Assembly (NCBI RefSeq): GCF_008039615.1
Contig: NZ_VDUZ01000045.1
Span: 1-64,000 of the forward strand
Direction: 5' to 3'
Source of the DNA: Vineibacter terrae
Lineage (GTDB): Bacteria; Pseudomonadota; Alphaproteobacteria; Reyranellales; Reyranellaceae
DNA length: 64,000 nucleotides
Shown here piece after piece: positions 27,699 through 31,853 of the stretch (positions are counted from its first letter, which is position 1; each line of letters begins with the position of its first letter). The notes under the pieces are model-generated. The model made no database searches. It saw nothing but the letters and a program-made list of their open reading frames with translations, and was not told the origin of the DNA. The translations under genes and the position numbers were made by a program.

Positions 27699-27778
27699 CT
27701 CGACGGCCTGGGGTGTCGCGCTTGCGCGACTGAGAGCACACCCATCGAACCTGTCTGGGTAATGCCAGCGGAGGGAGC
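27699..27778 (+). promoter_or_regulatory. TPP riboswitch (THI element)
   Basis: The conserved THI-box blocks appear in order: TGGGGTG, a GC hairpin (TCGCGC-TT-GCGCGA), CTGAGA, ACCC, GAACCTG, CTGGGTAATGCCAGCG and AGGGA. This is the thiamine-pyrophosphate aptamer. Its 3' strand (GGAGGGAG, about 27770-27776) also contains the ribosome-binding site of thiO eight bases before the ATG, so TPP binding should block translation directly. Confidence 0.95.
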
Positions 27779-27783
27779 AGCCG

Positions 27784-28941
27784 ATGAGCGGGAAGACCGC
27801 GTCGTCTCCATATCCTTGCGTCATTGTCGTTGGCGCCGGCGTGATCGGCCTGGCGATCGGCTGGCGTCTTGCCCAGGCCGGCGTCGCCGTGACGCTCTAC
27901 GACAAGGGGGCCGCCGGCAGTGGCGCCAGCCATGCTGCGGCCGGCATGCTGGCCGCCTGCGTCGAGGCCGAGCCGCGCGAGGGCAGCCTGCTGGCCCTGG
28001 GACGCGCCAGCCAGGCGCTGTGGCCCGCCTTCGCCGCCGAGCTCGAGCAGGCGACGGAGATTGCCATCGGCCTGCGGTGCGAGGGCACGATCGTGGCGGC
28101 GTTCAACGATGACGACAGGGCGCGGCTGCAGCACCATCTTGCGTTCCAGCAGTCCCTCGGCCTGCCGGTCACGTGGCTGCCCGCCGCCGATGTGCGACGG
28201 CGCGAGCCGCATCTGGCGTCCACGCTCGTGGGCGCGCTCTGGAGCCCGGAGGACCACCAGGTCGACAATCGCCGCCTGGCGGCGGCGCTGCGCGCGGCGG
28301 CCTGCGCCGCAGGCGCCACGTTGCATGAGCACGCGCCCGTCGAGCGCATCGCGCATGACGGCAAGCGCACGCACGGCGTGATGGTGGCCGGAACGCTGCA
28401 GCGTGCCGACATCGTGATCCTCGCCGCCGGAGCGTGGTCGCGCGATGTCCCGCTGGCGCCGCCCGTGGCGCGTCTGCCGGTGCGCCCGGTCAAGGGCCAG
28501 ATGCTGGCGCTGCGCATGGATCCGGCTGCGCCGATCCTGCGGCACGTCCTGCGCGTGCCCGATACCTATCTCGTGCCGCGCCACGATGGCCGGCTGATCG
28601 TCGGCGCCACGGTCGAGGAAAGAGGCTTCGACGGCGACATCACCGCGGGCGGCCTGCTGTCGCTGCTCGATGCCGCCTGGCGCGCCCTGCCGGCGATCGA
28701 GGAGCTGCCTGTCGACGAGACCTGGGTCGGGTTCCGGCCCGGCAGCCGGGACGACACGCCGATCCTCGGGCCCGGGCCGATGGACGGGTTGATCTACGCC
28801 ACCGGGCACTACCGCAACGGCATCCTGCTGACACCGATCACAGCCCGTGTCATCGCCGACCTCGTCCTGCACGGCGCGATTGATCCCTTGATCGGATCTC
28901 TTGGCGCGGCGCGCTTCCAGGCGCGCGCCGCCGCGGAATAG
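27784..28941 (+). CDS. thiO: Glycine oxidase
   Basis: A 385-residue FAD-dependent amine oxidase that converts glycine to dehydroglycine (iminoglycine) for the thiazole moiety of thiamine. The FAD fold is VIVVGAGVIGLAIGWRLAQA; further DAO-family blocks are GSGASHAAAGMLAAC, RPVKGQMLALRM, YLVPRHDGRLIVGATVEERG and YATGHYRNGILLTPITA. Its place between the TPP riboswitch and thiS-thiG confirms the role. ATG 27784 sits immediately after the riboswitch. Confidence 0.95.
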   Translation: MSGKTASSPYPCVIVVGAGVIGLAIGWRLAQAGVAVTLYDKGAAGSGASHAAAGMLAACVEAEPREGSLLALGRASQALWPAFAAELEQATEIAIGLRCEGTIVAAFNDDDRARLQHHLAFQQSLGLPVTWLPAADVRRREPHLASTLVGALWSPEDHQVDNRRLAAALRAAACAAGATLHEHAPVERIAHDGKRTHGVMVAGTLQRADIVILAAGAWSRDVPLAPPVARLPVRPVKGQMLALRMDPAAPILRHVLRVPDTYLVPRHDGRLIVGATVEERGFDGDITAGGLLSLLDAAWRALPAIEELPVDETWVGFRPGSRDDTPILGPGPMDGLIYATGHYRNGILLTPITARVIADLVLHGAIDPLIGSLGAARFQARAAAE

Positions 28942-28953
28942 GAAGGAACCCCC

Positions 28954-29166
28954 ATGGACGGCAGCGAGATCCGGGTCAACGGCAAGAACGAGGCGCTGGC
29001 CAGCGCGACGGTGAGCGAGCTGCTGGCGGACAAGGGCCTGGAGGCGGAGGGGCGCGGTGTCGCCGTCGCCGTCAACGGACGGATCGTGCCGCGCGTCCAG
29101 TGGCCGCAGACCAGGCTCGTCGCCGGCGATGCGGTCGAGATCGTGCGCGCGATGAAAGGCGGTTGA
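28954..29166 (+). CDS. thiS: Sulfur carrier protein
   Basis: A 70-residue beta-grasp ubiquitin-like protein ending in the essential Gly-Gly (RAMKGG). The C-terminus is adenylated and thiocarboxylated, then donates sulfur to ThiG. The adenylating enzyme ThiF is not in the window. GGAAGG precedes the ATG and the gene ends one base before thiG. Confidence 0.95.
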
Positions 29167-29959: not shown

Positions 29960-30010
29960 CGGACCAAATCCCGCCTGGATAGATGCCACGAAACGGCGGA
30001 TTGCCCGACC

Positions 30011-30898
30011 ATGACCGATCAGAACGATGACGTGCTTGCCGACATCGCTGCCGCGGTGGCCGGCACGGATCGGCGCTATGAGCGCATTGCCAACTTCGCC
30101 TGGCCCAAAGGCGTGCAGATGGCGGTCAACTTCACGGCCGATTTTGATGCCATGCTGCTGCGCCGTCTGCTCAACGAGCCGCCGATGCAGCTTGCCAAGG
30201 GCGAGTTCGGCGGTCGTGTCGGGATCTGGCGGTTGATCGAGCTGTTCGACAGCCAGCAGGTGAAGGCCACGATCTTCACGCCGGGTCGCATCTGCGAGCT
30301 CTATCCGCGTGCCGTGCGCGCCGCGGCGGCAAGCGGCCACGAGATCGCCGACCACATGTGGGAGCACCGGGTTCCGGACGACCCGGCGCTGGAAGCCGAT
30401 CACCTCCGTCGGGCGACCGCGGCGCTGGAGCGCACCAGCGGCCGTCGGCCCGTCGGCACCCGCAGCTGGCATCGGCACGAGGCGCTGGTGCGCGAAGGCT
30501 ACATCTACAACTCGCATGGCAGCGCCGATCACCTGCCGCATTACGAGTACGACAAGGACGGCAAGAACTGTCTTCTGAACCTGCCGTTCCACTACGCCAT
30601 CGACGACGCGATGTTCTACAGCTTCGCCTGGCTGGGCAGCGGCAACGCCGCGCAGCGCATCACCGACACCGACCGGGTGATGGATCTCTGGTGGCAGGCC
30701 TTCCAGCAGCAATACGCCCAGGGCGGCTATCTCAACATATGCATGCACCCGTTCGTGTCCGGGCGGGCGCTGCGGATTGCGGCGCTCGAGAAGCTGATCC
30801 AGCGCATGAAGACGTTTCCGGGCGTCTGGTTCCCGACCTGCGCCGACGTGGCGCGGCATTGCCTGCAGGCGTTCCCCGCCGGCCGCGCCACAGCGTGA
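30011..30898 (+). CDS. Polysaccharide-deacetylase (CE4/PuuE-like) family protein
   Basis: A 295-residue NodB-fold amidohydrolase. Metal and catalytic residues are visible: Asp44/Asp46 in NFTADFDAM, His110 and the H115-x3-H119 pair in GHEIADHMWEHR, Arg in GTRSWHRHE, and a late His in NICMHPFVSG. The pattern is nearer to allantoinase-like PuuE enzymes than to classical chitin deacetylases, so the substrate may be a small amide. It lies 51 bases after thiG on the same strand, possibly within the TPP-controlled transcript. Confidence 0.8.
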   Translation: MTDQNDDVLADIAAAVAGTDRRYERIANFAWPKGVQMAVNFTADFDAMLLRRLLNEPPMQLAKGEFGGRVGIWRLIELFDSQQVKATIFTPGRICELYPRAVRAAAASGHEIADHMWEHRVPDDPALEADHLRRATAALERTSGRRPVGTRSWHRHEALVREGYIYNSHGSADHLPHYEYDKDGKNCLLNLPFHYAIDDAMFYSFAWLGSGNAAQRITDTDRVMDLWWQAFQQQYAQGGYLNICMHPFVSGRALRIAALEKLIQRMKTFPGVWFPTCADVARHCLQAFPAGRATA

Positions 30899-30914
30899 CG
30901 GGAAGGAGCATCCC

Positions 30915-31853
30915 ATGCCCTGGAAGGATCGCTACACCATCTCCGACGAGGTCGGGATGGCCGATGCGGATATCGTCTGGCCCGACGGTGCCCGCTGCTG
31001 CGTCACGGTGACGGTCTGCCTCGGCTCGGCATCCGGTCCGCACGGGCTCACGGCGGCGGACATGCGCACGCCCGAGGCCTACTTCGCGGCCAATGACGGC
31101 ATCGAGCAGCTGATGTGCGTGCTGGGCCGTCACGGCATGCGCGTGACCTTCGCGGTGCCGGGTGTCCTGGCGCCGCCATACCAGCATCGCCTGCGTGCCC
31201 TGGTCGCGGCCGGCCACGAGGTCGCCGCCCTCGGCTTCCGCCACGAGGACGTCGCGACGCTGGCGCGGGACGAGGAGAAGGACCGCCTGGCGCGGACCAC
31301 GGCCCTGATCGCGGAAGCGGCCGGCGCCAGGCCGCTTGGGTGGTTCGCCCTGCCGCGCCAGAGCGATGCTTTCGCCGGCGGCGCCATCAGCCCCAGCACG
31401 ATCGATCTGCTGATCGAGGCCGGCTACGCCTACCTGGGCAACGGGCTGGCAGACGACATCCCGCACTGGTGGGTGGCCGACTTCGCGACCCGCCGGGCGC
31501 TGCTGGCGCTGCCGTACTACTATCATTTTGACGACCAGTTCTTTCACCTCTTCCCCGGCAAGGGGACCGGGCTGGAGCATGCCGACAGCCTGTTCCGCAA
31601 CTGGCGGGCCGAGTTCGCGGCGCAATACCGGCGTGGCCGGCAGTTCCACATGGTCCTGCACCCGCAGCACAGCGGCTGGGCGCATCGCGCGCAGCTCCTC
31701 GACACCTTCCTGCAGGACATGCGCAGCCATCCCGGCCTGTGGACCCCGACCGGCGGTGAGCTCGCGGACTATTGGCTCAAGGCCTATCCCCCGGAGCGCT
31801 TCCTGAAGCTGGAGCCGAGCATCTGGCAGGACCACGAGGGCAGCCTGAGCTGA
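30915..31853 (+). CDS. Polysaccharide-deacetylase-like protein, metal ligands apparently lost
   Basis: A 312-residue paralogue of the preceding protein, 16 bases downstream with GGAAGGAG before the ATG. Aligning the two by eye, Asp44 and Asp46 become Cys35 and Gly37, and the Asp-His of HEIADHMWEH becomes Ala-Leu in HEVAALGFRH; only the outer histidines and the C-terminal HMVLHPQHSG remain. The fold seems preserved but the canonical metal site does not. It may be a non-catalytic partner of the first protein or have a different active site. Confidence 0.75.
   Translation: MPWKDRYTISDEVGMADADIVWPDGARCCVTVTVCLGSASGPHGLTAADMRTPEAYFAANDGIEQLMCVLGRHGMRVTFAVPGVLAPPYQHRLRALVAAGHEVAALGFRHEDVATLARDEEKDRLARTTALIAEAAGARPLGWFALPRQSDAFAGGAISPSTIDLLIEAGYAYLGNGLADDIPHWWVADFATRRALLALPYYYHFDDQFFHLFPGKGTGLEHADSLFRNWRAEFAAQYRRGRQFHMVLHPQHSGWAHRAQLLDTFLQDMRSHPGLWTPTGGELADYWLKAYPPERFLKLEPSIWQDHEGSLS

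Follow-up and report, generated by a model that had tools for sequence, protein, structure and literature searches.

A PuuE-like gene pair behind a thiamine pyrophosphate riboswitch-led thiO-thiS-thiG unit in Vineibacter terrae: a candidate mobile unit with one zinc-site chain and one lacking the metal site

Do two genes that directly follow a riboswitch-led thiamine unit themselves serve thiamine metabolism? The question is raised by a locus of Vineibacter terrae (contig NZ_VDUZ01000045.1, positions 1 to 64,000 of the forward strand; this whole 64,000-nt stretch is the window, and its genome is referred to as G000), in which a thiamine pyrophosphate (TPP) riboswitch precedes thiO-thiS-thiG and two genes of the CE4 type follow on the same strand. 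We name these two genes dacA (30011..30898, + strand) and dacB (30915..31853, + strand). An earlier note on this DNA, made from the letters alone, had proposed that a PuuE-like enzyme under thiamine control deacylates a pyrimidine precursor or a thiamine breakdown product here. With moderate confidence we favour another explanation, in which the riboswitch serves thiO-thiS-thiG, and dacAB, which would not be thiamine genes, is a separate mobile PuuE-like unit inserted behind thiG that would encode an active DacA and a non-catalytic DacB.

We searched for dacA and dacB in a comparison set of 101 genomes, G000 included. Matches to dacA at 64–100% identity were found in 18 genomes, the next matches listed being at 37% or less, while full-length dacB matches (57–100%) were present in 17 genomes and partial ones (52–65%) in three more. 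Twenty stretches around these matches were fetched from other genomes, 16 with a complete pair and 4 cut or fragmentary. A TPP riboswitch with thiO, thiS and thiG lay near dacA in one of the 20, L068 from G002, a genome of the same genus as G000. The 15 other complete pairs stand without riboswitch and thiO, thiS or thiG, and 12 of them have a short-chain dehydrogenase/reductase (SDR) gene immediately 5' of dacA. Of 82 dacA loci in a named genome collection we retained the best 80 (59–91% identity), and a TPP riboswitch was identified in a single one, L141 (Reyranella sp. CPCC 100927). Our own riboswitch model, which has only 7 base pairs and works mainly by sequence, and a pattern scan of sensitivity not known both returned this locus, as did Rfam on the 43 of the 80 loci tested with it. 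Since the training set of our model included L068 and three control loci, these do not control it independently. L141 was also the only one of the 80 loci with thiO, thiS and thiG; two loci gave only weak (27%) matches to thiO, and none of the 80 had thiC, thiM or thiE. Because L141 and L068 come from one and the same genome, G002, all of the thiamine linkage we saw traces to one small clade, and linkage of dacAB to thiamine genes or THI elements did not recur. That homologues might never co-occur with thiamine genes had been named beforehand, in the earlier note, as one outcome that would refute its deacylase. As they almost never do, that role is nearly refuted. On the neighbourhoods in the 80 named loci and the 20 relatives' stretches we rejected a thiamine function for dacAB as unlikely. 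The result corrects a tempting annotation by proximity: dacA and dacB are not to be annotated as genes of thiamine metabolism. Our literature search, in which subscription journals were mostly not covered, returned no paper joining "TPP riboswitch" with "polysaccharide deacetylase".

The gene order of relatives indicates how the locus came about. Four genomes of the family (G005, G007, G009 and G012) have argH-lysA followed directly by a DUF4175 gene, and G001 has an SDR gene and ∼1.1 kb without match to window genes between lysA and DUF4175. In G003, of the same genus as G000, this interval holds the SDR gene, the riboswitch, thiO, thiS and thiG but no dacAB, and DUF4175 comes directly after thiG (aligned ends 159 b apart). 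Only in G002 and in the window genome does dacAB stand between thiG and DUF4175. The locus thus grows stepwise among relatives, from lysA-DUF4175 through the SDR gene and the riboswitch-led thi genes to dacAB. The match of G003 to the region around the thiG end in the window is confined to thiG. Its post-thiG stretch matches our post-dacB stretch (30 b at 90%, 34 b at 82% and 34 b at 79%), and for this reason dacAB was probably inserted behind thiG, a local and probably recent neighbour effect. In the window the SDR gene (26835..27614, +) lies upstream of the riboswitch and does not belong to the unit, though it is one of the pieces from which the locus was built up, and the DUF4175/TIGR02302 gene (31989..34709, +; exact start uncertain) is the next gene after dacB. 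A phylogeny of the pair from 71 of 76 paired loci plus the window, five loci being left out for short coverage, joined the window and L141 at full support; support for the deeper branches is low (0.24 to 0.85), their order changes from tree to tree, and they point to no particular donor lineage. In G025 (L086:4097-8047), pieces of dacA and dacB ∼3.5 kb apart look like a decayed or rearranged copy, and G009 has a dacB fragment at a contig end (L087:2-256).

The pairing itself is nearly strict. A dacB gene lies beside dacA in 76 of the 80 named loci. The distance between the aligned ends does not exceed 61 b in 74 of these and is 110 and 385 b in the others; three of the four loci in which dacB was not found end at a contig edge. 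Carriers include Reyranella, Acetobacteraceae, Rhodospirillaceae and Bradyrhizobium. Neighbours vary from locus to locus and the pair hardly changes, and this constancy argues for a working unit that would be composed of an active chain and a dead one. The pair was also observed in two actinobacteria (Prauserella and a Rhodococcus metagenome-assembled genome, MAG) and in a gammaproteobacterial MAG (L198, L207 and L210), an occurrence that suggests transfer of dacAB between phyla.

Both proteins belong to the family that the earlier note had assigned, scoring above the PF01522 cut-off of 23.1 (DacA 33.2 bits, DacB 38.7 bits). It had gone unnoticed there that only one of them has the residues of the CE4 metal site. 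DacA carries the zinc-site residues D44, D46, H115, H119 and H246, in which D46, H115 and H119 form the Asp-His-His triad as judged from the residues only; all five are present in 76 of the 80 loci and wherever covered in the other four. In the window DacB, C35, G37 and L106 occupy the positions where the enzyme needs Asp, Asp and His, and the second His is His110. The position of D46 is Asp in none of the 76 dacB loci (57 Ser, 10 Ala, 8 Asn and 1 Gly), while the first His is present in 29, the second His in 65 and the first Asp in 72 of them. In DacB of L196 and L197, labelled Rhizobiales and Hyphomicrobiaceae, the first of the places given for the window copy is Ala and the third is Leu. Values of dN/dS (nonsynonymous over synonymous rates, by Nei-Gojobori on the single genome pair G000-G002) were 0.10 for dacA, 0.16 for dacB, 0.13 for thiG and 0.25 for thiO. 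Despite having no metal site dacB is, by its value of 0.16, being retained. Solved relatives of DacA and DacB are 3rxz, 1z7a, 3cl6, 3s6o and 3qbu, and the predicted folds (14 and 17 sequences; mean pLDDT 75.8 and 77.0) best match the same entries. Identity with the PuuE allantoinase was ruled out by the TIGR03212 cut-off of 424.6 (DacA 98.2 and DacB 76.5 bits) and by the zinc residues of DacA. Taken together, DacA would bear the zinc active site of a PuuE-like hydrolase, and DacB is probably its non-catalytic partner chain.

Three other explanations have to be weighed against or beside this one. DacB could work as an enzyme in its own right, through an altered active site of the PuuE kind that contains no metal. 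PuuE is described as non-metal-dependent in an excerpt of PMC10967932, and the conservation of Asp35 and His110 in most loci (72 and 65 of 76) would suit such an enzyme; against it stand the lack of even Asp35 in the window copy and in 4 of the 76, and the near-strict pairing with DacA. We consider this unlikely, though not far-fetched. Much less probable still is that dacAB genuinely belongs to the TPP regulon of this clade, its PuuE-like hydrolase having been taken into service to remove an acyl group from a precursor or breakdown product of thiamine, for example formylaminopyrimidine, the role that YlmB plays in Bacillus. The pair does lie on the same strand as the thi genes behind a short gap, is kept behind thiG in two species at low dN/dS, and the genome encodes a TenA-like protein that could use the deformylated product, although its match of 101.4 bits is below the 130-bit cut-off. 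These points are outweighed by the solitary riboswitch-linked locus among the 80, by the 15 complete pairs of other relatives without thiamine genes, by the location of thiC, thiM and thiE elsewhere in the genome, and by a strong hairpin between thiG and dacA in L068.

The third possibility, compatible with the explanation we favour and judged separately from it, is that dacAB is functionally unrelated to thiamine and yet co-transcribed with the thi genes, so that thiamine passively lowers its expression by way of read-through. Any effect of thiamine on dacAB would then stem from read-through. As the earlier note had described, dacA and dacB follow with gaps of 51 and 16 b, and the thiG-dacA gap (29960..30010, +) has no terminator-like site. 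Our consensus scan of positions 27500-32100 returned no promoter-like site against 0.4 expected in shuffles and three terminator-like sites against 1.1, one on the + strand inside dacA (30123-30140) and two on the - strand; such scans are weak evidence in a G+C-rich genome, and neither count decides anything. The gaps of the two species differ, which tells against read-through: that of G002 contains, just ahead of the start of dacA, an 18-bp hairpin with no T run (L068:8372-8430; -37.1 kcal/mol, z -7.1). This hairpin occurs in one place in G002 and, at up to 3 mismatches, is not found in G000 or G003. Since the hairpin is absent from the window genome, the gap sequence is not conserved even between the two carriers. 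Co-transcription of dacAB with the riboswitch-led thi genes is possible from the layout, and we rate read-through at slightly less than even.

Several points weigh against separating the pair from thiamine and reading it as an inserted, two-chain hydrolase unit. dacAB follows thiG in each of the two genomes with this arrangement, and no promoter or terminator was recognised between them, so that regulation by TPP is possible. The named loci span at most 8 kb per side, many of them less, and more distant thiamine genes would escape. Loss of dacAB in G003, in place of its insertion in the other two genomes, would give the same picture. L156 lacks dacB in spite of 2454 b of sequence beyond dacA, and an association of DacA with DacB in a hetero-oligomer is inferred from gene pairing only. 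Finally, 62 of the 80 loci are without any amidase, racemase or M20 cluster member, and the neighbours vary, which bears on the substrate discussed below.

The riboswitch-led unit itself is ordinary. The aptamer (THI element; 27699..27795, +) matches RF00059 at 58.6 bits (cut-off 54.3, E 6.5e-9) and is the sole above-cut-off Rfam match in the window; the same core is present in two further genomes of the genus, at 57.9 bits in G002 (L068) and at 52.7 bits, slightly below the cut-off, in G003 (stretch L130). It is followed by thiO, encoding glycine oxidase (27784..28941, +; TIGR02352, 362.6 bits, cut-off 250.8), thiS, encoding the sulfur carrier (28954..29166, +; TIGR01683, 65.9 bits, cut-off 37.45), and thiG, encoding thiazole synthase (29168..29959, +; PF05690, 338.8 bits), which bears out the riboswitch and gene assignments made from the letters alone. 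The RF00059 match extends beyond the thiO start codon (27784) and includes GGAGGGAG (27770..27777, +), the presumed thiO ribosome-binding sequence, identical in L068 and L130. Because both lie in the match, the riboswitch likely acts on translation start, and TPP binding would most likely hide the ribosome-binding sequence of thiO inside the aptamer. A ribosome-binding sequence within a TPP aptamer is a known arrangement. The thiG gene of the genus is 66–67% identical to thiG in two genomes of other families (G077 and G075) and only about 44–48% identical to the thiG matches from other genera of its own family; given this closer resemblance to other families, the thi genes may have been acquired from elsewhere.

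That the cluster encodes only the thiazole branch holds at the locus, and genome-wide the picture is wider, since thiC, thiM and thiE lie elsewhere. The genome has four TPP riboswitches. The other three precede thiM, thiC and, ∼0.6 kb on, genes for an ATP-binding cassette (ABC) permease and an NMT1-type binding protein, and thiE is found ∼1.1 kb past thiM, behind alkB on the opposite strand. The system behind the last of these riboswitches (L005:7338-10104), whose binding protein is NMT1/THI5-like, probably takes up a thiamine precursor. Among the TENA_THI-4 matches of the genome, PqqC ranks first. We saw no missing thiamine step that would require dacAB, thiD and thiL not being included in the search.

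What DacA acts on may be approached through the neighbours, although this is the weakest step of our explanation. Families were assigned by scanning one member per cluster on rough open reading frame calls, at times in wrong-strand frames, and a gene was counted anywhere in a locus; an open reading frame at 8018-8863 of L130, for example, has no family and is perhaps in the wrong frame. Among the 80 loci, uptake families comprised TctC (10), Peripla_BP_6 (9, plus 2 of a second cluster) and SBP_bac_5 (9), at least one such protein being present in 28 loci. Amidases (6), Asp/Glu/hydantoin racemases (8, two clusters) and M20 proteins (7, two clusters) together marked 18 loci. Other families were SDR (19), luciferase-like monooxygenases (15, three clusters), 2-oxoglutarate-Fe(II) oxygenases (8) and GMC oxidoreductases (6). 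The occurrence of uptake proteins and of amidases, racemases or M20 proteins near the pair is a weak hint that a small cyclic amide or imide is broken down, and as a guess we take the PuuE-like hydrolase to be probably one for such a substrate. In the literature covered, two papers join "polysaccharide deacetylase" with "hydantoin racemase".

If the two chains associate, an active-plus-dead pairing in the NodB fold would be an unusual and directly testable architecture for PuuE-like enzymes, and this is the part worth following. We tentatively propose, while regarding it as somewhat doubtful, that DacA and DacB represent an undescribed kind of NodB-fold hydrolase, made of a zinc-bearing and a dead chain and spread as a pair across proteobacteria and at least two actinobacteria. 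In one clade it would have come to stand where read-through from a TPP riboswitch can reach it, so that a catabolic enzyme with no relation to vitamin B1 may be under the control of that vitamin. Our search, with the same coverage of journals, returned no paper joining "polysaccharide deacetylase" with "pseudoenzyme" and "heterodimer".

Set beside known systems, the riboswitch resembles other members of RF00059 in being an above-cut-off aptamer that precedes thiamine genes, and we saw nothing unusual in it. YlmB, which is not known to be a NodB-fold protein, would be analogous in role only under the thiamine idea of the earlier note. An excerpt of PMC10470507 describes YlmB as the best studied enzyme for formylaminopyrimidine. 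The best solved match of DacA is 3rxz from Mycobacterium smegmatis (∼30% identity, TM-score 0.8), an entry titled only "putative polysaccharide deacetylase". DacA shares the NodB fold with the PuuE allantoinase (3cl6 and 1z7a), its model reaching a TM-score of 0.75 to 3cl6, and matches TIGR03212. Excerpts of PMC3084791 and PMC10967932 place HpPgdA and PuuE in the same fold group and tie PuuE to a small substrate; DacA differs from PuuE, which the latter source describes as non-metal-dependent, in having the zinc-site residues. In HpPgdA (3qbu), according to an excerpt of PMC3084791, the zinc is bound by Asp14, His86 and His90, while Asp12 and His247 are placed at the water. The Asp, Asp, His, His and His of DacA would match Asp12, Asp14, His86, His90 and His247, a correspondence that we infer for the His from alignment and for the two Asp from motif and alignment to 3rxz; DacA reaches only 62.1 bits to HpPgdA alone and 90.1 bits with a profile. 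HxnM of Aspergillus is described as a related cyclic imidase similar to HpPgdA in an excerpt of PMC9304392. DacA is linked to the cyclic imide hydrolase group only through HpPgdA and this description of HxnM, and CIH of Pseudomonas putida enters by description only. Both HpPgdA and PuuE are described, in the excerpts cited, as tetramers, whereas DacA comes instead with a second, apparently dead chain.

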